From Brachycybe producta (taxonomy: Eukaryota > Arthropoda > Diplopoda > Playtdesmida > Andrognathidae), in the NCBI GenBank assembly GCA_036925085.1, contig JAUPFP010000008.1, positions 6,820,777 through 6,884,776 of the forward strand: DNA of 64,000 nt, written 5' to 3'. Both the position numbers and the translations under genes were made by a program. Below the pieces are notes generated by a model. That model did not search any database and was not told where the DNA came from. It saw only the letters and a list, made by a program, of their open reading frames with translations. This document shows, piece after piece, positions 6,688 to 59,132 of the stretch (the first letter of the stretch is position 1; each line of letters starts with the position of its first letter).

Positions 6688-7341
6688 GGCTCACTACAGC
6701 TAACTGGGTCACTACAGCTACTAGGCTCACTACAGCTACTAGGGTCACTACAGCTACCAAAAAGAAAATATAGACCTTTATTTCATCAAAAGGGTCACTA
6801 CAGCTACCGAGGGTCACTACAGCTACCAAAAAATATAGGCCTGTTTATTTATCAATATGTTTAGTTTAGATTACATTCGGTTCAGTTAGGTTTCATTATG
6901 TTCAGTAAGGTTCGGTAAGGTTCGGTTAGGATCGGTTAGGTTTGGTTAGGATCGGTTAGGTTTGGTTAGGATCGGTTAGGTTCAGTTAGGTTTGGTTAGG
7001 ATCGGTTAGGTTGTTTAGGATCGGTTAGGTTTGGTTAGGATCGGTTAGGTTCGGTTAGTATCGGTACTTTTTGGTTCGGATCGTTAAGGTTCGGTTAGGT
7101 AAGGTTCGGTAAGGTTTTATTAGGTAAGGTTCCGTTATTTTAGGGAGAAAGAGTTATTTTTTTAGCTGTAGTGACGAAAAAGTGATAAAAAAGGTCTATA
7201 TTTTGTCCCCCTATTTTTTGGTAGCTGTAGTGACCCTTTTGATGAACAAAAGGTCTATTAATTTTTTTGGTAGCTGTAGTGACCCAAGTAGCTGTTCTCC
7301 CCTTAGTAGCGCTTGTGAGCCTTGGTAGCTGTAGTGACCCC
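6688..7341. mobile_element. Foldback-like element 1: inverted minisatellite arms
   Basis: The left arm (6688-6832) has six copies of a TCACTACAGCTA unit, mostly with GGG or GG before it. The right arm (7162-7341) carries the reverse complement, TAGCTGTAGTGA, in four good and about two degenerate copies. Spacer sequence is mirrored too: TATAGACCTTT then TCAAAAGGGTCAC on the left, and GTGACCCTTTTGATGA then AAAGGTCTAT on the right. The loop between them (about 6875-7135) is a GGTTAGG-type tandem repeat. The architecture matches foldback elements, such as the sea urchin TU type, in which tandem repeats form the outer inverted arms. No transposase is present. Confidence 0.7.
6875..7135 (+). repeat. 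GGTTAGG-type tandem repeat, loop of foldback 1
   Basis: Roughly 10-bp units of GGTTAGGATC and GGTTAGGTTT or GGTTAGGTTC alternate, often in 20-bp pairs. The word TTAGG is the arthropod-type telomere repeat, but here it is embedded in a longer unit, so it is an interstitial minisatellite and not a telomere. Confidence 0.85.
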
Positions 7342-8896
7342 CAACCAATCTTTTTTTGGGGGGAGGTTTATTGTGAAGGATAAACAACCCTTGATTAAAT
7401 TCCATTAGATCTCCTCCTGTGATGTTTGATTTATGTTGAGGACGGGAAAGGTGCTTATTAGGCCTACATATTGTGGCCCACATACTTTAAATGTGATGGC
7501 CCTAATATAATATAGTGAGAGTGGAGATTAAATACATACTTAAACTTGATTTATTCAGGACTGCTTATACTGTATATAATGAATTCCGCGGAATAACTGA
7601 CATCGTTTATTATTTTTAATTTATTATACTTCTCTTGTTGTACCCTTCTTATGTTATTATTTTTTTAATTTTAAATTTCTTCTGTCCTTTTATTTTTAGA
7701 ATTTATCAAGGATTTCTTTTTTTTAATGAAAAAGGTTTATGAGGAGAAAAAAAATAAGCAGATATTATAGGAAATAAGTGGAATGTTTTTATTTCACTGT
7801 CCTGATTTCTAATTTTATGATGTTTTTGTTTCTAAATTAGCATTGACTTAATAATTTAAACAAAGATCCTCTACATGTAGAAAAAGCAAACTGAAAAAAA
7901 AAATTTAAATAAATTCTATTTATTTGGCAGAAAAAAAAGATGAAAATTTGTTTCTTTCTCTCCTGACAGTTGAAAATTTTATTTTATCAGCCAATAGGAT
8001 GTGGGCGTATTTCAGACGCTAATATTATTATTTATTGTTTCTAGTTTTTTTTTTTTAAATATTTTCAATTTCTCTTGATAGTTTTTATGCAGATTGTTAT
8101 TCGTCGTATTTAAGGATGTTTTTACATACAAAATAATATGTATGAATAGACAGACTTTTAAAAAAAAGAAGAATCTAGTTTTAAAAGATTCGTTGTTCAC
8201 GATTTTTAGCGTGAAATAATCCGTGTAAAAATCAAAAATCGATGTTGACCTACTGTCGTGTCGAAAAAAAAAAAACCCCTACGCCTAAAAACTACTTTTT
8301 TTTTTACTTTTTGGAACCATTTTTTCTGTTTGATGTGTTTGTGTATTGAATAATATTAAACGTTCCAAATTGCATATACAATGTTAAAAAATCAAAACAC
8401 ACAATTATATTAGAAACAATTTTCACATTTTTGAATTTCTATTTGCATATGTTATAAGTTTTTGCCTTACTTGATCAAATTGATAACCTACTTGAAGGAT
8501 ATGGATACACAAGATTTAAGAGGAAAATGGAGGAAAAAAGTCGATGGAGGATGATGATGATGATGATGGGGATCAACCCTTTTATTCTCCTTAGGCCATG
8601 AAATGAAATATTAAATTAGTCAAATGAAACCATTTTTGAAGAATTGTTTTCATTTGTACAGGGTGATCGTCAAAGAAACAATTAATTTAATAATAGGATA
8701 TTTCACATTATCCTCTCTAGTAGGGTGTTTCTATGAGGCCACTTTGTAATTATTATATCCCCCTTTCCATTTTCTCCTATCTTTTAAGTTTGGGTTACAC
8801 CCATGTTATATGTGTGTGTATTATTTGTTTGGGTCATCTGTGAACAAAATATAACATTATTATTATTATTTTCATAAGATTAGTAACACAAAAACC

Positions 8897-8900
8897 TGAA

Positions 8901-8931
<31 letters not shown>

Positions 8932-8932
8932 T
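8897..8932. repeat. (TTA)n microsatellite
   Basis: A run of TTATTA trinucleotides of about 35 bp. A similar ATT/ATA tract is at 15967-16031. Simple-sequence repeat. Confidence 0.85.
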
Positions 8933-11900: not shown

Positions 11901-13164
11901 GTAAAGCAACTCCATGTTGTCCCCCCCTCCCCTCAAAAAACACATCGAAAATGAGTGATGAATCGTCTGCTTTTTTTTCAAGCTAAAAGGAAGAAAGACA
12001 TCTTGCTTTATTAAGGCCAATGTATTGTAACTGAGAAGACATTTAGTTCTATTGGCCGCATTCACATGTGGCACTAAGTTCCACGTGGCTCCAAGTTGGT
12101 TTGCACTAAAAATTGTTGAGTATAATGAGAACCTGTCAACGATTTTAACTCTCTTGTATATGCTTTTAGGTCATGATTGCCGCCATTTTTAATTTTGACA
12201 AATTATGGCTTTTTTTATGCAGAAATTGCAATCAAAACATGCAAACCCAACGTGCATATCATTTAAAGTTCTTGCATTTTGTTGTGACTCCATGGACATT
12301 GGACACTGTGTATGTGTCTCATATAATAATTAACAAAAGTGGGCAGGACAAAGACAAATAAAGTGGGCAGGTCCCTAATGACTAATCAGTGTTACAGTTA
12401 ATATAAATAAATCAACCAGTAATCTTTAGTTGAGATAGATTGTATAGGTCTAGACGTTTGTTGTTGCAACAAATTTTGATGGTTGAATAGGTCAGAGGGT
12501 TATCAGACCTAATTATTCTGACCAATGTTAATTTACTTTGTTTGTTTTGATCTTCAAATATATTACAACTTGTTTTATCTAAAAAATTAAGTTAATTTTG
12601 GGTATGATTGATTTGTCCCTATGGATATCTACAATTTGTTTATATACTGTATATAAGAATTCAAAAGTATTTTACAATGGGAATTTTTTTTTTTTAAACT
12701 TATAAATTATTATAATTTGTGACAAGAATAATGAAATCAGTTGTAGTTTGTAAAGTTTTAATTGTTCTTTGTTTCAATGAGATGAAAAAGAAGGAGACGC
12801 CGGCAACAACAAAAAATGGAGAAAGATTCTGTTGTTTCTTATGATCTCCCGTGTATTAGTAATTAATGCCATAAATTCCACCGTAATCAAAATATCTACT
12901 CTAATGTGGAATGCGCGTATACCAACTTTCTGTATTAAAACTAATCGAATTAGTAATTTTGTAGATCAGTTTTATTGCATTTTAAGTAATTAAGTTTTCA
13001 GGTGGGTAAAGTAGTTTTTTTTTTTATTAAACTATATTTTGTTATTTCTCTATAGACTAGAATCAAATTCTTCCTGAGAATTACAGGAAGAAAAAAAATG
13101 AAAGTATCATAATCATAATTTTTGTTGCTGTTTTTTTTTGTTGCTAGTAAAAATCGCTGTACGT

Positions 13165-13330: not shown

Positions 13331-13560
13331 GTCACTTTCTAGTTTCTACCCTGTGTCTATTGCAAGTGTTTTTAGAAACTAGAAAAAAGACGAAATTGTA
13401 GTTTTTCGATGGCTTTTAGATGAAAAAACTATTTGAAGTTTTTCTGTTGTGGATTTAAAGTTTATTTTAAAAGATATCAAAACCAGAAGTGATTCATTTT
13501 AACACTTTTTAAAAAATAGTACATTTTGAATAATGTTTTTTTTGTCTTATTTCATTTTAG

Positions 13561-15998: not shown

Positions 15999-16032
<34 letters not shown>

Positions 16033-19000
16033 AGTGGACGTATTAAGCATCATCATTTTTAATGTTGTTTGTTTGAAAAGTTGAGTTGCTATGCCAAACA
16101 AACGAAATAACTTTCATTTTTAGATTATTAACTTTTTAATAATTTTTTTCTGTTAAATTACTTTTCTGAATCCATTTTGACTTATTTGCAATAAAAGGAT
16201 TGATGAGTGGGTCGTCAATAATAAAACATTGAAAGAAGTACATCAGAAAGGAGTTATTTATTTATATTATGTTACCTAGAAATAAACTAATAATATATAT
16301 ATATATATATATACACACACGATATGTATATACTAAATTTGTAATTAGATAAAAAGGGTCGCCATATTTTTTTATGTGTATGTGTTGCTATGGATAATGA
16401 CGGTTTTCTTTAAAGGAGGACGCAGGATGAATAAATTCATTCGAATTATGTTATTATTTTTCTATAGGCTATCTGATTTCTTTATTTTTTTCTATCCGAA
16501 GTAATTTATTTTTCTATGTTTTTCGTGCGTTTTTTCTTCTTCTGTAGGTGGACATATTAATCCGGCTGTTACTGTTGCGTTGGCAACTTGTGGTAAATTT
16601 CCTTGGAGGAAGGTGCCACTTTACATGATTGCTCAATACCTGGGTGCCTTCATGGCTTCAGTTTGCATTTTCTTCGTATATCGAAGTGAGTGGTTTTTAC
16701 TATATATTGTTCGAAGAAGTAGAGGGGGGGGGGGGGGTTTCCAACTACGGCTAGATGCAAAACAAACTTGCTTACAATTTAATACACATGGCCAAATTAA
16801 AGGTTTTGACTATGGTGCATCTGCGAAAAGTAGTGGAGAATACGAGAAGTAGTTGGAAAATATAATCAGATGATGCTGTTTGTTTGTAACCCTTATTGTC
16901 GTTTTCGTTACGTGCAGTATGCACGACGAGTTTCCTAGTACAATAATATTACAATATATACATGAAGATGCAAAATATACTCATATTGAAAGGAAAGTGG
17001 TTCACGTAAAACCTAATATTGGAAAAATCTACATTTTCGTCCAGAATCCAATCTTCTGACCAAATAAAATGAACATTCTCGTCAATGCCTTTGAGCAGTT
17101 TTACAATCATTAGTTGGTTCAATGTGGACACTTGGTTTGAGAAATGTGGCGCAACTTTTTACACTGGATGATTTGTGATTGCAACATGTTTCTCTTGTGT
17201 GGACACAATGTTTTCTTGTATTTTTGCTACATGTTTCATTAATATGAAAACATCCCTGGCAACATAGGTCATTAGAAGTGTATCCACTTGTTGCATTCTT
17301 TGCTTCTTGAAAGAGAAGAAAAGTGGACTAATCAAGTAAAGAAAAGAATTTGACAGAAACTGTAGAAATGGCAATGGAATGTTTCTAATTATTGTTGTTC
17401 AGTAATAATTGCCACAGATTGGAAAAATTCTGTTTTGTTGTACTCAATTTGGTTTATACTACAGTATAAATTATCTTCTGAGTTTCTTTCTTTACTTGCT
17501 ATATGACGATGATACAAATAATCACAAAGAAAAGCAAAAGAAAAGAAGAATTTAGTTGAGAAATAAGCCTTTTTTATATATACTTGGATTATCCTCAGAG
17601 ATCCAATCAATGGATGTTTTTTATTTTCTGCGTTGTCTGATCGAACTGAAAATAGAAGAAAGTATTATCTCTAAATGGCATTTTTCTTATTCAACATTGA
17701 ATTGTTAAGATCTTTTTTTATGGATTATTTGTGTTGTTTTCTTCTTCTGTTAGTTGTGCGAAGGTTTTTTAAAACCTTTTTTTTTCTCTCCACTTTTAAA
17801 GATAATACGTGATGTATGAAGAAAAAGAATGGTGGTGAAAATTTGATGATTGCAAAAATGGTTATGTAGGCAACTTAGTAAACGTTGCATAATGTCTAGC
17901 CTGAAACTAGATTTTTTCGTTTGATTTTTTTTTTTTCTTGCTGTGAAGTTCTTTTTTTTTTCAGCTGTATTTCGGGAAAGTTTTCACCCCAGGTTCTAAT
18001 TGCAAGGATAGTTTTATTTTCTGCAACAACAGCACAAAAAAAATAAGATTCCAAGAAGAAAAGCATCGAGTCATCTTATGTATGAAGTTGTCAAAATTTA
18101 ACCGTTTTTAATATTAGAAATTTATGATGCTTTTGAGGTTGTTTCTTTTTTACTTTTTATGGTAATAGGTTTATAATTTGTCTATTCATGCAGGCAACAA
18201 CAACAACAAAAAAACCGTTTTATAGCATTTTTTATGATATTAGGGTTAGAATCTCTGAAAGTTTGGAGTTTGATTTGGTTCTTATTAGGGCTAAGATCTT
18301 TATGCAATATTTAGCAAATGCTTCTCTTATCTGTGGCATAATGGCCAATTGTGAAGTAACAATCCAGTTTAGATCACCTAGCAATTAATTATGTTTTTTT
18401 TTAATCAAAAACACTGAATAGAGGCTAGAACAAGTTGACAACTGATAGTAATCAGACATTTAGCCTCTATACAGCCTTTTTGATTAGAAAAAACATAATT
18501 GTAGTTGCTCTAATAAAGATGGTTACTTCACATTTGGCACTTGGGCCACAAATTGAGAAACATTTGCTTGGTCTCGTATAAAAATATGAGCCGTATTTAA
18601 GGGCTATCGGCTTTTTTAAGCCTACGTTCCCAAATGTAGAAAAAAAAACTTGAAAATAGAATTTATCTTATTTAAATAATTCTATTCTATTTATTTGGCA
18701 GAAAGTATGCAGGAAAAAAAATGAAAGCAAACTGAAAGCAGAAATTAAGCTGAAACTTTGTTCTGATTTGTAGTTCTATTTCTATATTTTATGATATTTT
18801 TCACGCAAGTGTTCACACATGCAGAAAATAGAAATAGAAATAATAGAAAAATCAGAATTTAGTGTCAAGTCATATTTCTGCATTCTTTCGAACAGCGCAT
18901 GGCTGGAAACTGACGACACACAAGCTTTTTGTGCTGCGCTTTACACAAGACACGCAGCTGAGAATATATGAAAGCTTAAAACATGCGTGTAATTTCTATT

Positions 19001-23373: not shown

Positions 23374-23455
<82 letters not shown>

Positions 23456-27798: not shown

Positions 27799-27843
<45 letters not shown>

Positions 27844-30800: not shown

Positions 30801-33800
30801 AATATGAGGTTCTTGTTACGCGGTAAATCCTTCTTTCAGGATGCTAAGTTTAATCTTACAACGTGCAGGGTTCCAAAATAATGATGTGGTATTATAATAA
30901 AAATTAAACAAAATCAGAAACGACAATTATAAATGTATGAGATTTCAAATCTATTGATTTAAAATCATATATTTTATTTTTAAATGATAATTTTAAAATA
31001 AACCATTAAGCCAATATTATTTTAAATTATAATTAAAGTAATACGTTTTAATAGGTTAACATTTATTTTTAACAATTGTTAAATTTTTCAAATTAAAAAC
31101 ATACATATTTTTATATGAATGTAAATTAAAGTTTTATTTAATAATTTTAATAAAATTAACAATGATATTATTTTTAGGGTTGTGGGTTTTTAATATATAT
31201 TATTATTATAGTTTTTTTATTGTTGTATACAGATTAGTTTGTTGAACATTGTTGTTTTTGTTTCAACATGACATTCGTCTCTCCCGCTGGGAGAGTTCTG
31301 AAAAAAAAACCCAAGGTTTCTGTTTCTGGGCTCCCCTTTTTGTGTGTGATTTATAGCACTGGCATTTGCTTTAAGCTATAAACGCTTTTGTTTTGTGGCT
31401 AGCGAACAATCGATGTCAATTCCATTTGTGTGTGTGTTTTTCACACAATGGCTTTTTGGTCATTTCTTAAACTTCTTTTTCTATTTGTTTTTTCAACCAT
31501 CTAATGTTTGTATTGGACGTCAAAATAACATTTTTCCAAACTCGCGACAGCTTTTCGGTTTTAAGTACAGGTGTAGAAAAAAGTAAAAAAAAAATCTTTT
31601 CGTTTTTTGTTGAAGTGCTCGCATCACTTAGATCACTTACATTTTTTATAAAGATGTAAGCCACTTCAACACAGTTAACTTTTAAACAAAAACTTCAAGA
31701 AGAAGATGAACATTTATTGTTCTCTGGTCACCAAAGTCATTAGCGACTCAAGAGTCATTTTATTCATTTCTAATTAGTAGCCTAGTAGGGCTCTGGATTT
31801 TTATACCAATATCAAGTAAATGTTTCTCAATTTGTGAATCAATGGCCAATTGTGAAGTAACAATTCCATTTAGATCAAGTTGAAGATCATCCGACAATCA
31901 TGGCTTTTTTAATCAAAAAGACTGGTTAGAGGCTAGAACTCTAGTTGACAGTTGATAGTAACCAGACATCTAGCCTCTAAACAGTCTTTTTCGAATAGAA
32001 AAAACAAACAAACAATATAATTATTGTTGTTCTATTGATGATGATCACTTCATGTTTGGCACTTGGGTCACAAGTTAAGAAAAATTTGCTTGATAATGCA
32101 TAAACATCCGAGTCCTACTAACTAATAGTCACTCGTAACTTAGCAATTGCATTCTATAGTGTCTACACGTCACGTTAGTTGTTTTCAAAGTTACTGCATC
32201 TATTTTCAAACCAACATTCACTGCACTGCATGATTTCGTAAAGTGGCCATTGTAATTTCGACATTCTGAAAATGAAGCAAAAAAAAAAAAAAGGTGATTG
32301 GACATTACTTGCTGTTGAATCAACAATGTTTGGGAGATTGGTGGGTCATCGGCTTAAGTTACTAGGCTACTTACAAACTTAATTAATGGGTCACTTGATT
32401 TTAAGTGGGGATACTGAGCTTTATAGACCTCGAGATTTAATGAAAGGCGCTTTTCTTGGTGTTCAACTGCGAATAGTTTTTTTTTATCAGAATGGTCCAT
32501 GTATTTCACAAGTTTATGGAGCTGATTTCAATCAACGTTCTTCGAGTCAGTGTTGAGTAAATGTGTGCTGGATGTGATGGCAATATGAAGCGCCAATCAT
32601 GACACGAGTGGTAACCACAGCATAACTGTGGTTACATGAGTATGAAGTATATAATGAATACCTTTTGTCTCGGTTTGTTTAAACCACGCTACACACATTT
32701 TTTCATGATGAAATGTCATTGTGTTGACTGGTGAATTTGTAGCTATTTGTATTGTTCACTGTTATTATTGCTGCACAACAAAATACCATTTGTGTAACAC
32801 GCACTCTTTTATTTTCTTTCTTGTGTACTTTTTACTTACTGTCAAAAGCAAACTTCACGCAATGTTCAGATTAGGCCCTAGGTACATTTTTTATATCTAT
32901 TGTTATTCAGGTGATGCAGGTACTTGGACGTCAAATAACTTTAAGAAGAAAAAAAACCTGCAAGTATTTTAGAAACTAGTAGAGCAAATGAACCACTTAA
33001 AATGAATTTTATGTCGATATCTTGAAAAATATTGGGTAAAATTTTGGGTATTGCAAATTTTTTTTTATTTTCGTTCACTTCTTTATATATTTTTGAATTT
33101 AAGGGCCTAAAACTATGAAACAAAAAAATTCGGACTGCGCAATTTTTTTAAATGACACAGTCCTACTGACACAAAGCGTCCAGTAACTATTTGTTTCTCA
33201 AAATTTTTGTCAACATAGTGGCAACTACACAATACTATCAGAGAAACAGTATCAAAATACAGCTGTCAACAGATAACAAACAAGATGCAACTAGTTGCAT
33301 CTCGTTTGTTATCTGTCCACGCTAAAGAAACCATCCGGTGACAGTTGTCACATGTCTGCTGCTTATTGCCGTTATTCCTTTGATTTTCACTGCTCAACTT
33401 TATTTCCAAATCCTATTAAAGTGTCAAAATGTTGCCTCCGTGTGGACAGGGCTGGATATTTTTTTTATGTTTGCATTTTATATGCTGCTGCATTTGGACT
33501 ATTGTCTCTTTGCAACAGGTCTACATGGCTGCTTTTCGAGTAATTATTCAAATTTAGATTCTTGTTTGTATTCGTTACATGAAAGAATGTGCGTTATGAT
33601 TGACATGTTTTTTTTTATTATGCAAAATTCGTCATTGCATGCATTATTTCTAAAACACATTGAGATTTCTTTCATTCTATTATTACATGATGGAATTTGC
33701 ATCGTAACTAATTGTTGTTTTGGAAAATATTCTTATTATGTTTTTGTTTTCTTCCTTTTTTTTTTACAGAAATTGTTGACGTTCGTAAGACCGAGAAACA

Positions 33801-35540: not shown

Positions 35541-37175
35541 TGCAAATATAACTACGGCCCACCCGCCGATAGGCTTAAGGCCACTTATACCATTTTGTGT
35601 ACGACAGTCTTAACAAGAAGGGTCTTTGCTGCGAAGGTAGACAAGAGCCTATAGGTTCCTACCCCTCCCCGGTACCACCAAAACATAGTATCTCTAGGTT
35701 AGCAGCTAGGGTTTGTGCACAAGGTTGTGATTAACAGGTCTGTGTTATCATAGTTCCAATGTTCAGTTCGGGTGATTTAGACATCATTGTAAGGGAAGCA
35801 GCTAGGGTTTATGCACTAGGTTATAATTAACAGGTCTATTATCATAGTTCTAATGTTCGGTTTGGATGATTTAGTCATCATTGTAAGGGAGAAGCTGAAA
35901 GGGGGTGGTGGCCACTATTATCTCACTAGGAGTTATCACTGTCACTGGCAGAGCTGTTGTCAGTAGTGGCATCATCATGAGAAACAGGGTATCGGAAGAC
36001 TGCTTCATTAGCGAACTCACGCATTGCCTTCAAGTGTTCAGTTTGAAAGAGGACAGCTGGATGGATTGGCCAACTAAGATCAGTTCTAGTGGACCACAAG
36101 ATGAGTCATTCGCGTGCTGCAGTGCGAATGGGAAGCATACAATGGAACAGGATGTGCTGTAGTGTCCTCCTCACCAAGTTCGCATGGGCAACAGCCGTCT
36201 GTAGTAGAGAGCCGAAAATGTTGGAGGTAGCGATTGAACAGACCATGCCCGGTCATCAACAAAACTATTTTCCCTGAGAAGATGTGGTGAGAATGAGAAT
36301 GGTCCAGTTGTGGAAGCAGCTCATGGACTTGACGGCCGGTATTAGAAAGGTTCCACAGCGACTGCCACTCCCGGTGTTCCCTAGCTCGGACTGTTGCCTG
36401 GAAGCTCGATATTGCGCGACTGTGAACTGTCACTGTAAGTGACGTAGTCCATAGCTTGGCAAGTTGGTCGGCATGCTCGTTCCAGGTGTGGCCAGCATGG
36501 GCTTTAATCTAGGCCAAGCGTATCTGCCTGCCATAACTCCCAAAGCGATGTATATCGGCATTTGCATGGTATGAATCAGCATGTGTGCTGGATCCTAATG
36601 ACACAACAGTTAGTGCAGATAATGAGTCAGAGCAGATCATTATGGTTGTCCCTCACGGGGCACGCTCCCCACCCATTTTAATTGTTATCCGGATTGCTAA
36701 GAGCTCAGCCTGAAACACAGTACATTCATCCGGTAGATGGCACCCCCATGAATGAAACTCGTGATTGCGGTTGGTTACTACAAATGCAGAGCCAACCTTA
36801 TTGTCTCGTTTTGATCCATCGGTATAGATGCAGAAATCCACCTGTGTGCTTAATTCTGTAGTCCATTTCTCCACAGGGTATTCTTGCTGGAGTGCGGGGT
36901 GCATGGTATTCTTAATGGTTAAGAGGGTGTCCAGCAGCTCAGCGGATGCCTGGCGATGTTTCCAAAGTATGTGACGGCCGTGTGCAAGGATGAACACAGG
37001 TGGGCAGCCAGAAAGCACCTGAAGCGCCCTTGTCGGTGCTGTGCGAAATGCCTTGATTATTGCCAAAAGAAAGGGCCTCTGGGTAGCATCCAGAAGACGG
37101 GTGAGTGTGACAGTAGATGCTCTGTTACCCCAGACTTCCGCCCCATAAAGCAGCATAGGGGAAGTGCACGCCGAT
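35541..37175 (-). pseudogene. 5'-truncated LINE (I/Nimb-like, RNase H bearing), broken
   Basis: The 3' part of a non-LTR retrotransposon ORF2 on the minus strand. From 37156 down it encodes MLLYGAEVWG (the usual end of the reverse-transcriptase region), then an RNase H domain: Asp in FCIYTDGSK (residue 113 of this frame), Glu in VFQAELLAI (151), Asp in IICSDSLSAL in a second frame, and the closing IKAHAGH...EHADQLAK. A C-terminal LMTGHGLFNRYL plus CCPCELGEED segment follows. Damage: a frameshift with stop just after 36653 and a TAG in place of the usual Trp before IKAH. The 3' UTR is GC-richer than the surroundings and ends near 35541 in TATATTTGCA without a long poly(A). Clade assignment is tentative. 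Confidence 0.9.
35701..35890 (-). repeat. Tandem duplication in the LINE 3' UTR
   Basis: Two adjacent copies of about 95 bp (35701-35796 and 35797-35890). Both begin AGCAGCTAGGGTTT, share GATTAACAGGTCT or AATTAACAGGTCT and TTATCATAGTT, and end CATCATTGTAAGGGA. They are about 85-90% alike by eye. This may be a feature of the LINE family's 3' UTR rather than of this insertion. Confidence 0.85.
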
Positions 37176-37188
37176 AGTGCGATAATGT
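37176..37188. repeat. Target-site duplication, LINE 5' side
   Basis: AGTGCGATAATGT, a perfect 13-bp match to 35528-35540. It marks the 5' truncation point of the LINE copy and shows insertion, not local duplication, placed it here. Confidence 0.9.
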
Positions 37189-37360
37189 GTCACTATTTGT
37201 TGAAAACTTTGTTGCGATCTAAAAAAAATTCCAACTTAAAGCAGAAATGAACTATGAAATTTCGGAATTTTTGTGCCAAACATGATACAAAAAAAACGGT
37301 CAATTATTTCGATTATATTTCAATGTCAATTTTTTTAATGTAAATTTGACCTTAGTCTGT

Positions 37361-42896: not shown

Positions 42897-43570
42897 ACTC
42901 CTACGTAACATAGAAGGGCTATGATTGAAATTTTTTGGTAAAGTTTTGCTTAAACATACGGTATTTGCGAAGATTCAAATATGTAATTTTCAAATTTTAG
43001 ACGCGCTTTTTTTTAAAGAAGTTTAAAGTTTATTCGAAAGTTGAAAAGTGAAAGGACTGAGTGGTAGCATTTTTTATAATGACATCTTTCAAAATAAACG
43101 TTTTATGGCACTTTGAATAAGGCTAAAATTGTATGTTTTTGAGCACACACTCGATTTCTTTACTCTTCTTTCAAATACACTTTTCTTGGAAGATAACTCT
43201 AAGAAGATAAATACTTGAATCTCTGTACCTATGTTTGATCAAAATTTCCAAATATAAACGCCAGTTTTCCATTATTTTCTATATAGTATGTTTGAGAACC
43301 CAACTCCCCAATGGGTCCAATCTTATTACTAAAGCAGTTTGTCAGTAACTGGTTAAAATGTAGTTTTAGAAAGAAAAAAATTAAACAAATTAATAAAAAA
43401 ATTAAACAAGTTATTATAGTCATTTTAAAAAAAACTGAGGTTTAATTTTCTTTTTTCTTTTTATGGAAACAATTTGAAAACCCTTGGTTTTTAAAATTCA
43501 GTCAGTTTTTTAAAATTAATTATCAGTTTATTTCAATTTTTTTTTGTACGGATACATTTTGATTTTATTA

Positions 43571-43808
43571 CTAGGGCTCGGATTTTTATACATTACAAAA
43601 CAAATGTTTCTCAATCCGTGGCAGAAAGGCCAATTGTAAAATAACAATCCCGTTTAGATCAAGCAATAATTATGGTTTTTTTAGCCTTTTGATTAAAAAA
43701 AAAGCATAATTGCAGTTTTTCTAGTGATGATGATTACTTCATAAGTGGCATATGGGCCACAAATTGAGGAACATGTGCTAGAATATTGCATAAAAATCCG
43801 AGCCCTAG
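43571..43808. mobile_element. TIR element family A, copy 3 (core deleted)
   Basis: Sharp ends: CTAGGGCTCGGATTTTTATA on the left and its complement TAAAAATCCGAGCCCTAG on the right. Both flanks read TTATTA (43565-43570 and 43809-43814), a possible target duplication. Compared with copies at 18285 and 31783 it lacks the GAGGCTAGAA core, so it is an internal-deletion derivative. Confidence 0.85.
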
Positions 43809-46140
43809 TTATTAATAACAAATCTAGTGGTTTCTCAAATGTTTATTTTTAAACGATTTAGCTGCGCCACTTCTTAATTTTTTTAGTAATACATGTAGAT
43901 TGGAATGTTGGTTATGAAACATAACTGTATAAATTGTATTCCTCTGGGACCTTTTTAATTTTTTTTTTTTATTTTATGTTAGTTTTGTACATTATTTTAA
44001 TAGAATCTGTTCTCCAGAAGAACAAAATACTGTCTTCACAAGTTCAGCAAGTTGCCTCATACAATATGGATTAACACCTGTTTGCTGGGATCTTTGTTTT
44101 TTATACAAAATGTAATGAGTTCTTTTTTGTGGCGAACCTTTATTGTAACATGGTTGCGATTACTTATTCTTTTTTTTTTCCTATGGGGATAAATCTATTT
44201 TTTATCGGTGTATGAGATGTCTGTAATATTGGATCTTACAAGAGGAAAGAAAAAAAATTAATGACTTTGTACTTTAAAGACACTCTATTTTACTTTAGAA
44301 ATTGATGAGATCTTGTCCACAAGTATTTTTTTTCTCTCTTCTTTTTTGAACTGTTGAGATGAAAACATTAACAACAGTTGTTTCAAGTGTGGTACATCAA
44401 GCACAGATGTATTTTTATACAGGAATTGAACCTAATCTATACAGCTTTAACAGTGGCTACAAAAATACAGAAATAAAGTTAACTGTGAAGGATTTTTGAC
44501 ATTTTAAGTAGAACCCCACTTTTTGTAAAAAATAAAATATTGAAGCCCTGCCCACAAAAGTTTATAGTGAGCTAGCGCACCAAGCCTATAGGATCTCTCA
44601 GACCATAACACCCACCATGTCCATGAGGCTCACGAGTTGGGTCATTGTGATCAAAGCACATAGGCTTCGATTTTGTATAAACCCAACACGATCATGATTT
44701 CATAAAACCCTCCAAGCCAATGAAGCCCACAAACCCATGACACCCACAGAGCCCAGCAGGTCCGTGATACCAATTGCGTTTGTTTTTCGTTAAATTGTTA
44801 GTCCAGGCACAACCTATTCCAATAGCTTGGCTAACCTTTTGGAAAAGCACATTGGCCCGTGAACTTTATTTTCTAATCTTATGGAAAACACAATAAAGTG
44901 TTTCTAAGAATCACTAAGTATACTTTCACTTGTATGCATATATATGCTAATGAGATTGTGTAGTTTTGTTCTGAATTTGTGTTTAGTAAAATTGCGTTCA
45001 CATATGCCATACACTTAGTTTATTATATGCGGTGTTTTTGAAAATTAGGGAAGTCCTAATGTTGTCATTATTATGAAGCTTTAATGGATTTTTGTCATCA
45101 ACCTTTAATTGCCTTAGGCTAGACCTAGTACGGTGCATATTTTCTAATTGTGGCACAATCTGTAAACAATAAACTACAAGAATTTGAAACAAAAAGAACC
45201 ATTTCAATGTGGTTGTTTTGCTTTGGATATCCTTTAATCAACAAAGAAAAATTATTTTGTAATATGTATTTGAAATGTAGGGGAGGATGAGAAGGTGGTG
45301 TATGCTTGATGTGGTCATTTCTGGTCAATTCAGTGGGATTTAGTTTTAATTGAAAAGTTACAAGGCTTTAGACAGATTAATTTGGATTTATATGGGATCA
45401 CTAAGGAAAAGTTTTTTTTCTTTTTTTGCTAGGCCTCTCTGTTTATGACATTATCTCATCTTCATTTTAATAATCATAATTTGAGATGATATTGAAATTC
45501 TGAATTAAGTTATTAGTGGTCATCAAATGAATGATTGTAATGTGGTTGTTGAATGATGCTTCTACGTGTTTTTATAATGATCGATATGATTGATAATGCA
45601 ATGCACACATACACATAAAATGGACATATAGGAGAAAGTGGAGCAAAATTCAGACATTGGGTAAATTGGAGTACGTGGTGTTTTTTTTTCCCCCACACAC
45701 TCTTTATTTTATCAAGATTGCAATTTTCATAAGTTATACTAAAATTTCAAAGAAAAGTTGAATCTTTCTTTTTAAAGTCGCCTATAGGTAATTAATTACT
45801 CCAAGATAGCTAGCTGCATTTAATAAATGGTAAATTTAGCAAGTTTTTATCCAGAATGGTTGATTTAATGCATGTAAAATTACTTTTAATTATATGTTGT
45901 ATGACGATGAAATCCGGTTGAAGAAATTGTGGGGCAAAATGGGGCATTAACAAGTGGGGCAAAATTAAATATGCCACTACAAATGAGACTTGCACATGCT
46001 AATGATTTGTTTTAACCAGTTATTATATATATAATATCCCAGGTCTGTGTATCTGTGTATCTATCTGTCTTTCTGTCTGAAGTAACGCTGTACAACCATT
46101 GAAGCACATCGGAATTTATATAAATTTAAATAAGTGAAGA

Positions 46141-46200
46141 AATGAACAGCTTTTTTTTTTCTCAAGGTCAACTATATGTTGCACCCTTCTCATCCAAGAA
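46141..46200 (+). repeat. Left flanking direct repeat of foldback 2
   Basis: AATGAACAGC, a T run, CTCAAGGTCAACTATATGTTG and CATCCAAGAA. It matches 47927-47981 (AATGAACTGC, T run, CTCATGGTCAACTTTATGTTG, GATCCAAGAA) in the same orientation with a few mismatches. These copies lie outside the inverted minisatellite arms. Confidence 0.8.
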
Positions 46201-46208
46201 CCCCATGA

Positions 46209-46350
46209 TATTAAATTGGAGAGGGGAAAAGGTTGGAAAGTGTAGAGGGGAGAGAGAGGAAGAGTGAGAGAGAAATGTGAAGGGGGAAAAAGTGGGAGGG
46301 GTGACTGAAATTGAAATGAAAGGAGTAAAAAAGGAACAAACGACGCGCAT
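46209..46350 (+). repeat. Purine-rich tract
   Basis: About 140 bp that is nearly all A and G on the plus strand (GGAGAGGGGAAAAGG, GGGGAGAGAGAGGAAGAG, GGGGGAAAAAGTGGGAGGGG). Long homopurine tracts can adopt triplex (H-DNA) structure. It sits just left of the large inverted minisatellite. Confidence 0.8.
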
Positions 46351-46460
46351 GCGCACACCAGAGAAAATGAAAAACACATTTTCTATTTCAAATATAAAAA
46401 GGGGAGGGGATAATAGTAGCAAAATTAAACTACAGTTTATCACAGGCCATAAAAACAATT

Positions 46461-47905
46461 AACCCTAATGGAACATTTTCCTTAAAACCATTTACCCTAA
46501 TAGAACATTTGCCCGAAAACCACTTGCCCTAAAACCATTTGCCCTAAAACCATTTGCCCTAAAACCATTTGCCCTAAAACTATTTGCCCTCAAGGAACAC
46601 TTGCCCTAAAACCATTCACCCTAAAACTATTTACCCTAATAGAACATTTGCTCTAAAACAACTTGCCCTAAAACCACTTGCCCTTAAAAACATTTACCCT
46701 AAAACTATTTACCCTAATAGAACATTTGCTCTAAAACAACTTGCCCTAAAACCACTTGCCCTTAAAAACATTTGCCCTAAAACTATTTGCCCTCAAAGAA
46801 CACTTGCCCTAAAAACATTTGCCCTAAAACTATTTGCCCTCAAAGAACACTTGCCCTAAAACCATTCACCCTAAAACTAATTACCCTAATAGAACATTTG
46901 CCCTAAAACCACTTGCCCTAAAACCATTTGCCCTAAAACTATTTGCCCTCAAGGAACATTTGCCCTAAAACCAATTACTGTATATTTAGACTACTCATTA
47001 GGGGAACATCCCTTTAGGGCAAATGTTTTTTTAGGGCAAATGTCCCTTTAGGGCAAATGTCCCTTTAGGGCAAATGTCCCTTTAGGGCAAATGTCCCTTT
47101 AGGGCAAATGTCCCTTTAGGGCAAATGTCCCTTTAGGGCAAATGTCCCTTTAGGGCAAATGTCCCTTTAGGGCAAATGTCCCTTTAGGGCAAATGTCCCT
47201 TTAGGGCAAATGTCCCTTTAGGGCAAATGTCCCTTTAGGGCAAATGTCCCTTTAGGGCAAATGTCCCTTTAGGGCAAATGTCTCTAGGGCAAATGTCTCT
47301 AGGGCAAATGTCTCTAGGGCAAATGTCTCTAGGGCAAATGTCTCTAGGGCAAATGTCCCTAGGGCAAATGTATCTAGGGCAAATGTATCTAGGGCAAATG
47401 TCCCTTTAGGGCAAATGTCCCTTTAGGGCAAATGTCCCTTTAGGGCAAATGTCCCTTTAGGGCAAATGTCTCTAGGGCAAATGTCTCTAGGGCAAATGTC
47501 CCTTTAGGGCAAATGTCCCTTTAGGGCAAATGTCCCTTTAGGGCAAATGTCCCTTTAGGGCAAATGTCCCTTTAGGGCAAATGTCCCTTTAGGGCAAATG
47601 TCTTTAGGGCAAATGTCTCTAGGGCAAATGTCTCTAGGGCAAATGTCTCTAGGGCAAATGTCTCTAGGGCAAATGTCTCTAGGGCAAATGTCTCTAGGGC
47701 AAATGTCTCTAGGGCAAATGTCTCTAGGGCAAATGTCTCTAGGGCAAATGTCTCTAGGGCAAATGTCTCTAGGGCAAATGTCTCTAGGGCAAATGTCCCT
47801 AGGGCAAATGTCCCTAGGGCAAATGTCCCTTTAGGGCAAATGGTTTTAGCACAAATGTTTCTTTAGGGCAAATGTTTCTTTAGGGTAAATTGTTTTAGGA
47901 CAAAA
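46461..47905. mobile_element. Foldback-like element 2: giant inverted minisatellite
   Basis: The left arm (46461-46971) is built from 15-bp units of the TTTGCCCTAAAACCA type with variants (TTACCCTAATAGAACA, CTCAAGGAACA). After a short spacer (46972-47009) the right arm (47010-47905) carries the opposite strand: 17-bp TTTAGGGCAAATGTCCC units, then 15-bp TCTCTAGGGCAAATG blocks, alternating, and finally GTTTTAGCACAAATG-type decayed ends. Total arms about 510 and 900 bp. Each unit contains TTAGGG or TAGGG. It encodes nothing real; the 15-bp blocks merely read as repeating MSLGQ. Confidence 0.85.
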
Positions 47906-47926
47906 ACTTAATCAGATTGAAATTTA

Positions 47927-47981
47927 AATGAACTGCTTTTTTCTCATGGTCAACTTTATGTTGCACTCTCCCGATCCAAGA
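47927..47981 (+). repeat. Right flanking direct repeat of foldback 2
   Basis: Second copy of the flanking sequence, about 80-85% like 46141-46200 by eye. Too long and diverged for a fresh target duplication; more like a segment duplication or part of a composite element. Confidence 0.8.
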
Positions 47982-47999
47982 ATCCAAACAATAGTAAGG

Positions 48000-48193
48000 A
48001 CAGGCAAGTAAAGACAGTAAAATACAGTCGTTTTCCCCGCCTTTTTATGAGGGCCAGCAACTTTTAATTATTTTGTTATGTCGTCTGATGTCACATGCCC
48101 CGTTCTTTTCAATTTCCAATTGGTTGATATTTGGTCTGACAGTCATAAATGGGCGGGGCACACGACTGTATCTCCCTGTCTTCACATACCTGT
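48000..48193. mobile_element. 194-bp MITE with about 50-bp TIRs
   Basis: Left ACAGGCAAGTAAAGACAG, then ATACAGTCG, CCCCGCC and TTTATGA. Right end reverse-complemented ACAGGTATGTGAAGACAG, then ATACAGTCG, CCCCGCC and TTTATGA. The flanks are AACAATAGTAAGG (47987-47999) and AACAATATTAAGG (48194-48206), matching at 12 of 13 positions. The centre is non-coding. Confidence 0.85.
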
Positions 48194-48632
48194 AACAATA
48201 TTAAGGTGCTTATAAAAAACACAAGTGGTCAAGGCGAATTGCTTCATGACAACCGGACAGTCACACAAAAAGAAACTAGATGCTCCCATCATTTATGATG
48301 GGTTACCCCACTAGTTTATATATAATGTACATGTAGGTTTAATTGTGAATGATGTAGTGTGTGCACTGTTTGTTCAATCCTGAACATTGTCCAATGCCAG
48401 TTTCACACGTTCATCCACATGTTGCATAGGGTTTCAGGGTTCTATTCAAAGAGTTCTCTTCTATGCTGTATGTAATCCTGTGCGAAGGATTCAACATAAA
48501 AACCTGTGACATCGAGTGGGACTGGGCTAAAACGCTAATAGTTGTGAAGATTTATCGGAATTGGTGGTGCTTTACACTGATCAGTGAATCTGGAAATTCT
48601 TTCAATTCTTTAGGTTGATTTTAATTTAACAA

Positions 48633-50909: not shown

Positions 50910-51200
50910 CGGCTTGGATTATTATGCAGTATGCAGCAAATGTGTCTCAACCTGTGGCCCAAAAGCCAATTGCCAAGTAACAATCCTGTTCTGATCAACC
51001 AAAAAAACACCTTGTTAAAGGCTGGAACTCTTGTTGACAAGTGATAGTTATACGCAAACATCTAGCCTCTCACCAGCCTTTTTTATTAGAGAAAGCGTAA
51101 TTGCAGTTGTGCTAATGATGATGATTACTTCCTAATTGGCACTTGGGCCACAAATTGAGAAACATTTGCTGGATATTGCATAAAAATCCAAGTCTTAGTA
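50910..51200. mobile_element. TIR element family A, copy 4
   Basis: Left end CTTGGATTATTATGCAG; right end TGCATAAAAATCCAAG. Inner arms GCCAATTGCCAAGTAACAAT and GATTACTTCCTAATTGGCAC; core AAAGGCTGGAAC, TTGACAAGTGATAG and CATCTAGCCTCT. Same layout as the copies at 18285 and 31783, including the core. Confidence 0.8.
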
Positions 51201-51638
51201 ATTAATAATATTAGAAAAAAAATCGTTTCCATTCCCAAAAAATACTATTTAATCCTAGAGTTTTTGTAGAACAACAACATTTTGGTATGTTGTAAACATA
51301 CTTCTGAGATATTTAATTTTAAACGATTTTGATAAAAGACTGGAATATTGATTCTGGAACATTCTGTATATATACAGTATGTACATATAGGAGGAGGAGT
51401 ATTTTTTAAGAGATTAGAAGTAGTTAGTGATGAACATGGTTTTTGTTTCTCAATTTGAAAACTCTTTTGTCATTATTTTTCTGATGTGTGACCAGCACAA
51501 ATACATATAGAATATGACGAAAAGATAACTCCTATTTTTTCTGATAGGATTTTTCTCTATAAATAAAACGTATAAGCTGAAATGAAAGAGTCATGTCCAT
51601 TTTTTTTTGGTGGTTGTTATCTTTAATTTTCTTCATTT

Positions 51639-52347
51639 CTATACTTCACTTATGGTTGTTCTAAAACTTTTAATGCGAAATGTTCGTCTCAAGTTGTGTG
51701 GACTTGCCACATGGTTTACTGAAATGGGATAAGCTTTGATGACCAATGTGGCTTGACGACAACAAAGTGTGTGACCCAACTTCCTTCGAAATTTATTGCT
51801 GAAAACGCTATAAAGCAATGGATTTGAGGCTGAAGACGCATAGGCCATAAGTTTAGTAAAAACCAATAGCGACCATGTGTCTTCAAAGGGCATGTTGCTC
51901 GAGAGTGACCTATAAAGTAGAAGAACTTGATTTGGAGAGAAACAGATGAAGTAGACAACCACACCGGCAATGAGCATCTTGACCACTCCTTTTCTTGATC
52001 TCATTGCGTTTGAAAAACGTTGTTTGCCGGACACTGGCTCAATACGTTTTAAAGCATCGGTGTTAAATAATTTTTGTCCAATTCGGACATAAAGGGTTAT
52101 CTGAATGACCAATGGCATCAGGTAGAATACTATGAACTCTGAGTAGTAAAAGGCAGTCTCAGCTGTTTCACTTGGAAAATTGGTGATACAAGGTGTAAAG
52201 TTGGGTTGTACTTGGCTGATGACATTGTACATTATTTGAGGTGTTGCTATTGTCATGGCAACTGGCCATATGCAAATGATGATGATGAGGATTCGTGCTC
52301 TACAACACACTATGTGGGCTTTGATCGGATGTACTATGGCAATGTAC
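51639..52347 (-). CDS. Terminal exon of a TRH-receptor-like peptide GPCR
   Basis: A rhodopsin-class (class A) receptor acting at the plasma membrane, presumably for a neuropeptide. The exon starts at 52347 after a TTTCTTTCAAAG acceptor; the leading G completes the Arg of the DRY/ERY motif (AG|G), followed by YIAIVHPIKAH. It encodes 235 residues plus stop: TM4 with W27-P28, ECL2 with an N-glycosylation site (NFT, 49-51) and the conserved Cys53, TM5 with Pro78, TM6 with CFSP (135-138) where most relatives have CWxP, TM7 with NPLLY (175-179), helix 8 and a palmitoylation-type CysCys (195-196). The YIAI-HPIKA loop, the RK-V-KML entry to TM6 and SLSS-F--W-LL before TM7 resemble thyrotropin-releasing-hormone receptors; the ligand is inference. 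N-terminus and TM1-3 are on exon(s) not found here. Confidence 0.88.
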
Positions 52348-53358
52348 CTTTGAAAGAAAAAAGAAAAATTGACATTAAAAAGAGTTATTTTAAATCAAAA
52401 CGTCACTAGAATTATTTATACCCTTTTTTTTTTGAAACATAAGAAACAAAAAAAACTAGAAGAACTTGATCACGCAAAGAAATTTTGTTGTTGATAACTT
52501 TAAAAATAAATTGTTACGCAAGTTTGACAGTTTTACATAATGATATGACACAGTATGAAACAATTGACATTTAAAAAAATTGTTATTTTAAGTAAAAACG
52601 TTACTACGTCACTAGAACTATTTATATTTTGCTTCTTAAAAACATCTTTTTTAAAAAAAAGTATTGAAAATGATTTATGAACGAAGCAAGAGTGACTGAA
52701 TTCCGCAAATATATTTTTATTTTGACATTTTTAAGTTTTTTTAAAGCTGCTTAAATCGAAAGTTTAAAATTACCATAAATTGTTTATTTTTAAAAACACT
52801 ACGATTAAAAAAATCCCTTAAGTGATTCGTTTATTCTTCTAGTTTCTGAAAAATATAAATGCATTTTTTTAAAAGTTGGTTTTCAAAATGAAGATATGAC
52901 ATTGTTCTCTTTCATTTGCATATTTTACAATGAATACTTATAAAAAGTTTTGAAAGAAACTTTTTTTTTTGCAGAAAGACAAAGAGAAACAAAAAAAACA
53001 CGAGACATTATAATTACACTAATGGAAAAAGACAAGAAGAAAAATTGTTTTATGTAGCTAATTGTTAAAAAGACCCCCATTTATTGTTAAAGACATTGTA
53101 ATGAATTCCAGAGATTAAGAAGCTTTGGTCTCCTAGTGTCACGTTTTTTTTTTGTATTATAACGCCCAAGTGGAAAATCATTTATTTGAGACAGTTACTA
53201 GACAATGTGCAACATCACCAATTTGATGGCTAATCTAGGAACTTCAAATTGAACCCACTAAAAATGGTTTTTTTTAACATTGAAAAAACCTTTTCAAGAG
53301 TATTTCAATAAACCAAGTTTTTTCTAGTTTTTCTCGTGAGTTTCAGTCTGCAGCAAAT

Positions 53359-55560: not shown

Positions 55561-55597
55561 GTGCTGGTGGTGGTACGGTGGTGGTGGTGGTGGCTAT
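55561..55597 (+). repeat. (GGT)n microsatellite
   Basis: GGT trinucleotides with one interruption (GTACGGT), about 37 bp. A G-rich single strand of this kind could form a G-quadruplex. Confidence 0.85.
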
Positions 55598-55899
55598 TGT
55601 GTGTGTGTTTCTGTTAAAATTGCACACTCGATTAATTACTTAAGTGTTTACTAAAGTCTTATGTATAAATTCGTTAAGAGAAACTTAGAAACCATGGTTT
55701 CAGCACACGCACAAAAATTCGTTTTATTGAGTACCCTTTAACGGGATTTTTCTATGTTGGAATCTTTTTCAGAGGGTTCAAGTTGACAGGTTTTCGGGTT
55801 CATTTGTAGTAGAGCATTAGTGCATCAATTTAATAAACAAATTTATTAATATGCCATCGGTGATTGCCCCTTTTTCTGGGGTTAAAAACCTCTATGATG

Positions 55900-56165
55900 G
55901 TTTATGAACAGTTGATTTTCGAACTCTGAATGTTGGCTTTCAGGAGTAAAATTAAGAGAAACTAGAAACTAGAAGGTGATGGGCTCAATAATCACTTAAA
56001 TATATTTTTTATGAAAAAATAAACATTTTTATAGACAAAAATTTAAAAAAATATTCGTCTGCTTAAAGTTCGATCATTTTCAAACTCACATACAAAGTTT
56101 ATTTAGAAAGATAACAACATGAAAATACCCTTAAATGATTAAGCTACCATTCTAGTTTTTAAAAA
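55900..56165 (+). repeat. Dispersed repeat R, copy 2
   Basis: Reverse-complement partner of 13920-14190. Landmarks in plus orientation: TTTATGAACAGTTGATT, AAATTAAGAGAAACTAGAAA, TTTTTATAGACAAAAATTTA, GCTTAAAGTTCGATCATTT and GATTAAGCTACCATTCTAG. Small indels distinguish the copies. Confidence 0.65.
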
Positions 56166-56542
56166 CATTCAAATTTTTCATTTTGCACCTATTTTGCACC
56201 TAAAAGACAGAATAATCAGTGTTTTAATGGTGCATTTACACTTTAATACCATTTTGATAAGAATTTCATTATAAACTGTTGAATGAGCAATAAAATGTTG
56301 AATATATATTTTTATCAGTTTTCTTCTTCTTCTTCTTAAATTGCGTGTTTTTAAAGTTTTACGTAACTGTACTGAACACAAAGGTATTTTATTTTTAAAA
56401 TTAGATTCTAAAACTTCAATTTATCACTCTTGTCAGAATACAACATAGCAACAACAACAACTATTAAGTCTACAAAAAGGTTTCCATCTCCCATAGAAAT
56501 AAATGGGGTTAGGGGCTACCGTATACATAATGTATATGTCGC

Positions 56543-56650
56543 ATCCATTTGGTGTAATTGTCCATTACACGAAATGAACATAAATTGGCCTGATGCAATA
56601 CGCGAAATGTACATTCATTTCGTGTATTGGATAATTACACCAAATGGATA
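56543..56650. mobile_element. Palindromic MITE, family M, copy 3
   Basis: The most intact copy: left ATCCATTTGGTGTAATTG, right ATAATTACACCAAATGGAT, so both outer termini survive. Inside are CATTACACGAAATG and CATTTCGTGTATTGG. Length 108 bp. No coding. Confidence 0.85.
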
Positions 56651-58740
56651 TATGGCATATATACAATGTAGTGTTAAATTTGTAGTTTAACCATTTCATT
56701 TTGCACACTTTGTCGTTAACATATTTAAAATGGCTTCTTTGAAACAAGAATGAAAAAAAAAATTAGTGTTAGTTTTTCTAGGTTGGTGAATGAAGACTTG
56801 ATTTTCTTTGCATTACAAATTATCTTTTGTTGGGGCAGTTTAGTTAAAGGGTGGGTGGAATTTGTGCCATACAATATAGGTACACTTCGGATATATATGC
56901 TCTTATATGGTCTTAATAGACTTTGCCTTTTTTTCTTCTTGCAATTTATAATGTGCATGTATGTATTATTTTTTTTTTTTGCTATCTGCATTGCAGATAT
57001 TTTCTCGTTAAAATTATTGACAAAAACCAGCAAAAAAATGTCATTGATAGTCAATTGAAATTTCGCAAATGAAAAATGAATCATTTTTCTGAAATTTTTG
57101 TTGTTGTTTGTATTTACTGTATTTATGAAATCTGTGAATATAAAAAATAAAATGTGTGGTATTATTAAATTTAAATATGCCTTTTTAGTCAACAAACTGT
57201 TTAGAGGCTATAATTTTTATTATTAATTTAAGGTCGGATATCGTCGGATATAGAAGTATGCAACCTTGCAATTAAGTATGTTGCAATTAACCGCATTGAA
57301 TGAAAAATGCGAATTCCATTGGCCTTAGTTGTTATCAATTAATTAGCGTTTAATATCTTTTAAAGAATAGTTAACATAAATTGGCAGTAATACATTATAG
57401 GTTTTTAAAGAATGTACAGTATATATTTCCATTTTATCAAGCATATTTTGTAAGTTTTAATGCATATTTTCAAATTTTTTTTAAGTAAGTGCATATAAAT
57501 GTCGTATTCTTAATGATTTTGCAACTTTCTGTATGTAGCACCAGTTTTACTTTAGTAATCATTAAGAATACAACCCATAATTTCCATAAACCGATTCTCT
57601 AGTTCTGACATGTATAATTAAAAAAATTCTTTATTAAATGAATATAATGCCTATAGGATATTTATCATGATTTTTCTATGATAAACCTTTGTATTTCTAA
57701 TACGGTATAGGATGTAATTAGCCTGATTATCTATTGATTTGAAATTCGTTTAATAGGCCTTACATGTCAAACACCCGAGGCATATTCTGGCCACACAAAA
57801 GACCAATTTCACATAGTGTCATATAAGGTTACTTGTAAAAGTTATCAAATAAGAAAATAAAATATTATAAAAGTTTTCATTCATGCGTGTGGGAAGTTGA
57901 TATTGGAAAATTTAGTTAGTAATTAATAGTCTTTAGGCTTAATGATTAGTGGATCAAAAGGAGTGGAAAAAAAGGTTGACAGTTGGATGATGATGAGATT
58001 CTGTTGTTAAGTTTATTGAGTAGATGCTAGTAGGATATATAATTATCTATATTTTTTTCATAAAAATGAAATTGATCTTGGCAACCAGATAACGGAAGTA
58101 TTTGTTGTTGTTGTTGTTATTATATTTTCCTGTTCCTTGTTATCTTTTGTGTCTGTTAAAGTTTAAAAAAAAAATTTTTTTTGCCCGTTATCCAATTGCT
58201 TTAATTGAAATGGAAATACATGTATGTATTCAAAATTGAAATTGACTTTGTATTGTTACATTTTTCTTTTCATGATTTCTCATGAGTAAATTTTCTAGTG
58301 TTTTTTTTTTTTTGGTTCAAATTTCAGTTCTTTTTTGTTGAATTTCTAATACAAAAGTTACAAATGATTTTTTTATACATGTATAGGAAATATTAGCAAT
58401 TTGTTGAAAATACACTGTAAGATGTTATTCTCTTGCTTCTGGGCTTTAATATTGATGCACATTATTATAAAATGGATTGTTATAAACTCAAATGATGTGT
58501 CAAATTACACTATTTTTCAGTATTTTCATTGGAAATTATTTTTTTAATTTAAAAATTAGTTCTAGATTATTATTTTTTTTAATTTGTATAAATCGAGATT
58601 GACTTTAAAGATGAACTGAAGTCATTGCAAATCACATTCTTATTGGTAAATCTTTTAAGCCATCAAATGTTGCTTATGTGCATTTCGTTTGTTGCTTTTA
58701 TGTGGTTTCTCTTTAGTGCAATTTGCAACTGCAATTCAAG

Positions 58741-59132
58741 AAGCGCCAAACTGAACAAGCGCCAAATAGAACAAGCGCCAAAATGGGTGAACGTCAAAAT
58801 GACTTGTTAAGGTTGACTAAAAATACTAATTATTAGTAATCATTTAGCATCTAATGATGCGGCGCGTGCATGAGCACTTCTGCGCAAATGGCTTGCAATA
58901 AGGTAAAAAGCTTTACATGGAGGCTGAATTGAACGAAGATCTTTTACAAACATGCTCGACGGCTCAATCTAGAAAATGAAACAAGTGCCAAACGGAATAA
59001 TTGCCAATAGGGATTTGCGCCAAGTTTAACTAACTCCAAACTGAATAAACACCAAAAATGTGAAAGTTAGTCGATTTGACGTTTGCTTAATTTTGACACT
59101 TGTTCATTTTGGCGTTCATTCAGTTTGGCCCT
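58741..59132. mobile_element. Foldback-like element 3: inverted GCGCCAAA minisatellite
   Basis: Forward units of about 16 bp, AAGCGCCAAACTGAAC and variants, at 58741-58804 and again, more decayed, at 58977-59062 (GTGCCAAACGGAAT, CTCCAAACTGAATAA, CACCAAAAATG). The opposite orientation is at 59071-59132: TTGACACTTGTTC, ATTTTGGCGTTCATTC, AGTTTGGC. Same design as the elements at 6.7 and 46.5 kb but an unrelated unit. No transposase. Confidence 0.72.

Follow-up and report, generated by a model that had tools for sequence, protein, structure and literature searches.

A 64,000-nt stretch of the genome of the diplopod Brachycybe producta (the window; G000:C8:6820777-6884776 in an assembly of 295 Mb, 442 contigs and ~30% GC) contains three elements, here termed A, B and C, each with short tandem units that face their inverted counterparts. 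A and C probably represent two non-autonomous cut-and-paste transposon families of the Mutator/Foldback kind, with B a separate, Helitron-like element. An unexpected feature is that A and C, which are otherwise unrelated, share a core array of the TTAGG type in fixed orientation. All three elements had been pointed out in an original prediction made from the letters of the window, and repeat and inverted-repeat scans find each of them to be real, C being weaker and degenerate. The prediction was also right that the arms of the three have no unit sequence in common; its range of 12–17 bp for the tandem units has to be replaced by one of 15–18 bp. Counts of exact copies across the genome place A, B and C each in a dispersed family. 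(A reversed-pattern control, run beside each exact genome count of A and C ends and of the B spacer, gave 0 every time.)

Element A (6682..7346, plus strand, 665 bp) is a complete non-autonomous foldback element with the ends GGGACTGGC...CCCCCAACC that are common to loci L009-L038, of which L009 is the window copy. It is flanked by an 8-bp target duplication, with AATCTTTT at 6674..6681 on the left and its match at 7347..7354 on the right. The left arm (6688..6837, plus strand) consists of 16–19-bp units, (G)GGTCACTACAGCTAC, mainly of 18 bp, and the right arm (7163..7346, minus strand) has the same units inverted, the two matching each other at 82.8% over 122 bp. Beyond the inverted repeat the outer motifs are asymmetric, GGGACTGGC versus GGTTGGGGG. 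The centre (6879..7132, plus strand), which the prediction did not mention, is revealed by a repeat scan to be an array with 5/10-bp periods built of TTAGG, TTCGG and ATCGG. From the 40 scored of 701 genome candidates, 29 further copies were taken as loci, with 85–98% identity to the query over the matched parts, and the exact 36-bp left end has 211 copies genome-wide. End pairs of both A and C were collected within loci L001-L072, distinctness being judged by flanks. For A there are 34 pairs, 28 of them distinct, and a perfect target duplication is present in 21 of the 28 (17 of 8 bp and 4 of 9 bp), with a duplication having one mismatch in 2 others. In a displaced control, 2 perfect duplications occurred among 2,296.

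The window copy of C (58738-59136) is degenerate. Its forward units (AACAAGCGCCAAACTG; 58738..58785, plus strand) and a second, degenerate set of forward units (58980..59043, plus strand) were identified by a unit search with shuffles, and its reverse units, also degenerate (59072..59136, minus strand), by unit search and inverted-repeat comparison, giving the order forward, forward, reverse. With up to 5 mismatches allowed, the 16-bp unit is found five times forward and four times in reverse, and at least 495 of 500 shuffles had three units or fewer in all. The arms match at 76.9% over 65 bp. Relatives elsewhere (best 40 of 648 genome candidates scored) match the window copy, among the matches listed, only in parts, at 70–93%, and are better preserved, with the ends GGTGGCGCTGATCAAGCGCC and GGCGCTTATTCAGTCGCCCC and, as in A, asymmetric outer motifs beyond the inverted repeat (GGTGGCGCTGATC versus GGGGCGACTGAAT). 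Two of them, L050 and L055, have a forward array followed by a TTAGG-type core, a short unique stretch, a second forward array and then a reverse array. The 36-bp end of the family is present in 193 exact copies genome-wide. There are 26 C end pairs, 20 of them distinct; in 13 of these the 8-bp duplication is perfect and in 2 more it has one mismatch (displaced control, 1 perfect among 1,640).

Further evidence for insertion comes from sites without the element. For 41 copies with a duplication, some of them redundant, the flanks were joined and compared with the gathered DNA; among the matches listed, 8 of the 18 queries with spanning matches were read as sites where the duplicated word stands only once. 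Six are A insertions (L018, L020, L021, L032, L035 and L036, with a small gap beside the L036 site), and the two C queries, L048 and L049, are one insertion in two near-identical contigs, so that distinct insertions with a matching unoccupied site number 7 (6 A, 1 C). The joined flanks of L032 have one match within the B element of the window, at 46100-46347. The unoccupied sites of A and C are paralogous, not allelic. With that proviso, the absence of target duplications and of empty sites, named in the original prediction as the outcome that would favour formation in place over transposition, is contradicted for both families.

Fixed ends, target duplications and unoccupied sites thus support transposition of A and C, and arm units of 16–18 bp, asymmetric outer motifs and duplications of 8–9 bp place them with Mutator/Foldback elements such as Tm1. 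The arms of long terminal inverted repeats would then consist of the facing minisatellite units. A transposase provided in trans would cut at the GG... ends and insert the element with duplication of 8–9 bp of target. The repeated arm units would most likely provide several binding sites for the transposase, and their number could change by slippage. For Galileo, tandem arm units can bind transposase, according to the parts of two papers that were available (PMC3688188, PMC3573991).

The enzyme may be of the Mutator-like element (MULE) type. A profile search of the genome gives 21 matches to the MULE domain, and all five open reading frames (ORFs) tested pass the Pfam cut-off, that of L078 marginally (28.9 versus 27.6 bits). 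A MULE ORF of 1,088 aa lies inside a palindrome at G000:C5:5400000-5409000 (L078, L085, L086) whose arms are at least 4.2 kb long and 99.8% identical, with minisatellite arrays (periods 10–48) in their outer parts. Protein search found inverted pairs of the MULE ORF on contigs C2, C5 and C38; altogether four of these ORFs are full-length and uninterrupted, and two shorter partners have one stop each. In this genome, then, a MULE gene does sit between inverted arms with minisatellites, a setting that supports the growth of foldback arms on Mutator-type elements. That a MULE is the mover of A and C we infer, because no transposase was found between the ends of either. Stretches with facing left ends were considered as autonomous partners and rejected: L080 and L081 are neighbouring C copies, L082 and L083 are neighbouring or nested A copies, and L084 is an inverted A dimer. 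Array read-through aside, the ORFs seen in L080-L082 are of 96–131 aa, and L083 and L084 showed none above 90 aa. Likewise rejected, with short flanks read, was the idea that the MULE loci bear the ends of A or C (0/7). At L074:3962-4501, next to a MULE ORF, an array of 21-bp tandem units (ATGTTGAGATACTAAGTCAAC) contains stretches of the GGTTAGGTTAGG type and perhaps represents another such family.

Element B is of a different nature. It extends over 46024..48315 (plus strand), from 5′ TATATATATAATATCCCAGG to 3′ CTAGT, as judged by the ends that its copies share. Within it, repeat scans and copy comparison delimit a left minisatellite array of 500 bp with a 15-bp unit (CATTTGCCCTAAAAC; 46474..46973, plus strand), a 35-bp spacer (46974..47008, plus strand) and a right array of 896 bp (47009..47904, minus strand) in which the left-array unit is inverted, with 15/17-bp periods (TTTAGGGCAAATG...). 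The order left array, spacer, right array is kept in 12 of 12 copies (the window's own, L001, with L002-L008 and L069-L072), in which the spacer is 91–100% identical; the spacer has 27 exact copies genome-wide. Of 4,467 candidates 40 were scored, and in the 39 other long matches the right flank, from 47905 to ~48315-48329, is 93–99% identical. The copies have the 3′ end, CCCGTCATTTATGACGGGTTACCCCACTAGT, in common and differ in the bases beyond it. This end (48285..48315, plus strand) is a hairpin (48285-48302) followed by CTAGT, in agreement with the 3′ signature of Helitrons, a hairpin and then CTRRT. B also has the central tandem repeats and 3′ palindrome that are features of Helentrons and HINEs. 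Head-to-tail copies are present in L008 and L036, and among the matches listed one pair, L005 and L057, gives an unoccupied site that lacks a long duplication. The evidence supports B as a Helitron-like element whose internal palindrome is built from a single minisatellite in both orientations. It would insert without a long duplication, as in the one case seen, and its movement is probably by a rolling circle.

The idea in the original prediction that one architecture reflects one route therefore fails for B, by its ends and context, while its view of mobile foldback elements with minisatellite arms holds for A and C, with their duplications and unoccupied sites. The three could be kept together if the B arrays were a foldback transposon that had inserted into a Helitron-like element. 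The palindrome of arrays does have edges of its own (~46447-47905), and there are short relatives of the carrier that lack it. However, the array module is in an identical context in 12 of 12 copies and by eye there is no 8–9-bp duplication at its edges, so nesting is improbable, and a single class for A, B and C is rejected on the Helitron-like ends and context of B. Similarly improbable as a general account is formation in place, in which fold-back replication gives an inverted duplication whose units then expand with no transposition. Inverted dimers do arise. L084:66-1349 is an inverted A dimer with two bodies fused at their right ends (CCCCCATGGGGG) and the left motif at both outer ends, which implies that fold-back events occur and may reshape elements; the MULE locus, too, is a 99.8% palindrome. 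In addition, short relatives of B (~535 bp) share its 5′ part and 3′ end, and by eye have a plain palindrome in place of the arrays, so that the B arrays may have grown where they are, as the in-place mechanism offered in the prediction would have it. For A and C, however, there are fixed ends, 8–9-bp duplications, unoccupied sites and hundreds of identical ends, and even the L084 dimer is flanked on both sides by GTACAAAC. A purely in-place origin of individual A and C copies is rejected by their duplications and unoccupied sites.

A stronger competitor, with perhaps one chance in three, would have A and C as foldback elements that belong to a different superfamily, namely P, hAT or Merlin. 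Duplications of 8 bp also fit hAT and P, and those of 8–9 bp fit Merlin. The perfect 8-bp target words (n=30) have a weak G...C preference, G being first in 14 and C last in 12 (P 1.3e-4 and 6e-4 for the excess over base content, uncorrected for positions examined), which counts in the same direction. Against it are the four 9-bp A duplications, since 9 bp fits hAT and P less well, and the GG ends of A and C, which are unlike the CA that is usual for hAT and P. In favour of another superfamily, Galileo is foldback-like and has a P-type transposase and internally repeated arms, in the portions of its descriptions that were accessible (PMC3688188, PMC3573991). The assignment of A and C to the Mutator/Foldback kind also has to accommodate several observations that weigh against it or against transposition as such. 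Five of the 28 distinct A end pairs lack a duplication, some of them joining ends from different copies, as do five of the 20 distinct C end pairs, and the window copy of C has neither recognisable ends nor a target duplication. For 23 of the 41 joined-flank queries there was no unoccupied site in the DNA compared, and among the matches listed the remaining 10 of the 18 were gapped or within arms or tandem repeats. In no locus read is there a transposase between A or C ends, and these ends, sought with up to 5 mismatches, are absent from all seven MULE loci read, the flanks of which were short. As to B, the L005–L057 pair is the sole clean unoccupied site among the matches listed, and its subterminal inverted repeats, assessed in the window copy, are not above chance (67 of 500 shuffles equalled the best match).

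The feature that most merits further attention is the TTAGG-type core common to A and C. Its occurrence was scored in copies with distinct flanks and an 8- or 9-bp duplication having at most one mismatch. A (TTAGG)n core is present in 23 of 23 such A copies and 9 of 15 such C copies, always oriented alike with respect to the left end, and the six C copies without a core match are the six shortest (208–384 bp). The matching copies score 28–172 and 87 background stretches from the window score 12 or less, while in every matching copy the best anagram repeat scores below (TTAGG)n. The window copy of C (score 6) is without the core. A 15-base TTAGG run, with one mismatch allowed, is found in 33 of 33 A loci and 22 of 32 C loci, and in none of 12 B or 9 MULE loci; within the window it is only inside A. 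Such runs away from arms account for 1 of 307 matches (the A and C loci having been chosen for carrying elements). The exact junction of C arm with core has 223 genome copies.

A 50-base run of (TTAGG)n gives 7,466 overlapping genome matches, and those listed all fall within C1:5001-5545, close to where a 22-Mb contig begins, and have the strand expected for that end. The genome has no match to (TTAGGG)8. Judged by this placement, (TTAGG)n appears to be the host's telomere repeat. TTAGG is frequent among insects and present in other arthropods too, according to the part of a review that was available (PMC9693754). A speculative and rather unlikely scenario is that A and C were built around this repeat: at chromosome ends that were broken or being healed, telomeric sequence would have been captured between inverted arms or folded back there, and one MULE acting in trans would then have spread both elements. 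Interstitial telomere-like arrays would in this way have been seeded at hundreds of sites, with a single orientation with respect to the arms. Because the A core is impure, with TTAGG mixed with TTCGG, ATCGG and others, it may instead derive from a 5-bp microsatellite of other origin. Among the titles listed by a literature search on telomere repeats in such elements, none describes a core of the A and C type, though one may exist in print; the same review, in the portion available, has one proposal that a short interstitial telomere sequence may be a remnant of transposon insertion (PMC9693754). If the core is telomeric, two otherwise unrelated foldback families would be a testable source of interstitial telomere sequence.

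Elements of the A and C type are not without precedent. Drosophila FB and sea urchin TU elements have tandem units in inverted arms, as do A and C, a likeness that is by description and not by sequence. The suggestion that the elements form an undescribed class does not hold, since Tm1, Tetris and Galileo, in those sections of their descriptions that were to hand, already have such arms. Tm1, a Mutator/Foldback element of root-knot nematodes, resembles A and C in its arms of tandem units (~14 bp in Tm1) in variable number, its short asymmetric motifs outside the inverted repeat, its 8–10-bp duplications and its majority of MITE-like copies (miniature inverted-repeat transposable elements). A and C differ in their unrelated sequence, 16–18-bp units, TTAGG-type core and duplications mostly of 8 rather than 9 bp, and the linked MULE transposase that the available part of the source reports for Tm1 has no counterpart found for A or C (PMC3169594). 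Tetris, a foldback element of Drosophila virilis assigned to Mutator by its authors because of its duplication length, likewise has long inverted arms with tandem repeats, is non-coding and makes 8–10-bp duplications; as far as the accessible text goes, its arms are larger than those of A and C (up to 1,735 bp), few of its copies are structurally complete and its sequence is unrelated (PMC4079207). Galileo, of the P superfamily, shares with A and C the long, internally repeated inverted arms, and is set apart in the excerpts available by 7-bp duplications, a P-type transposase and, in subfamily F, units of ~210 bp (PMC3688188, PMC3573991). The nearest to B found are the non-autonomous oyster Helentrons Cg_HINE/Pearl, and DINE-1, which in the available parts of their descriptions have in common with it a 5′ microsatellite-like stretch, central tandem repeats, a 3′ palindrome and T/A-rich targets. 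B is unlike them in that its central repeats are an inverted pair, its end is CTAGT and its subterminal inverted repeats are at chance level (PMC7492417, PMC4067079).

For annotation, minisatellites that face each other should be treated as candidate transposon arms, and short target duplications looked for beside them. A scan of 313 kb for inverted pairs of arrays yielded only the A, B and C families (A-arm variants and the A core included), and says little about further families since most of that DNA was chosen for carrying A, B or C. Elsewhere in the window a further dispersed repeat has at least four copies, partly in both orientations (18283-18599, 31783-32127, 43564-43818 and 50911-51208). 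By appearance, two ORFs in a GC-rich segment at 36086-37189 (minus strand) are candidate retrotransposon remnants, and a 251-aa ORF at 51639-52394 (minus strand) is a candidate for part of a G-protein-coupled receptor. In the genome at large, contigs G000:C47 and G000:C48 have several near-identical match pairs at similar spacing, with the appearance of either two haplotypes or one large duplication.

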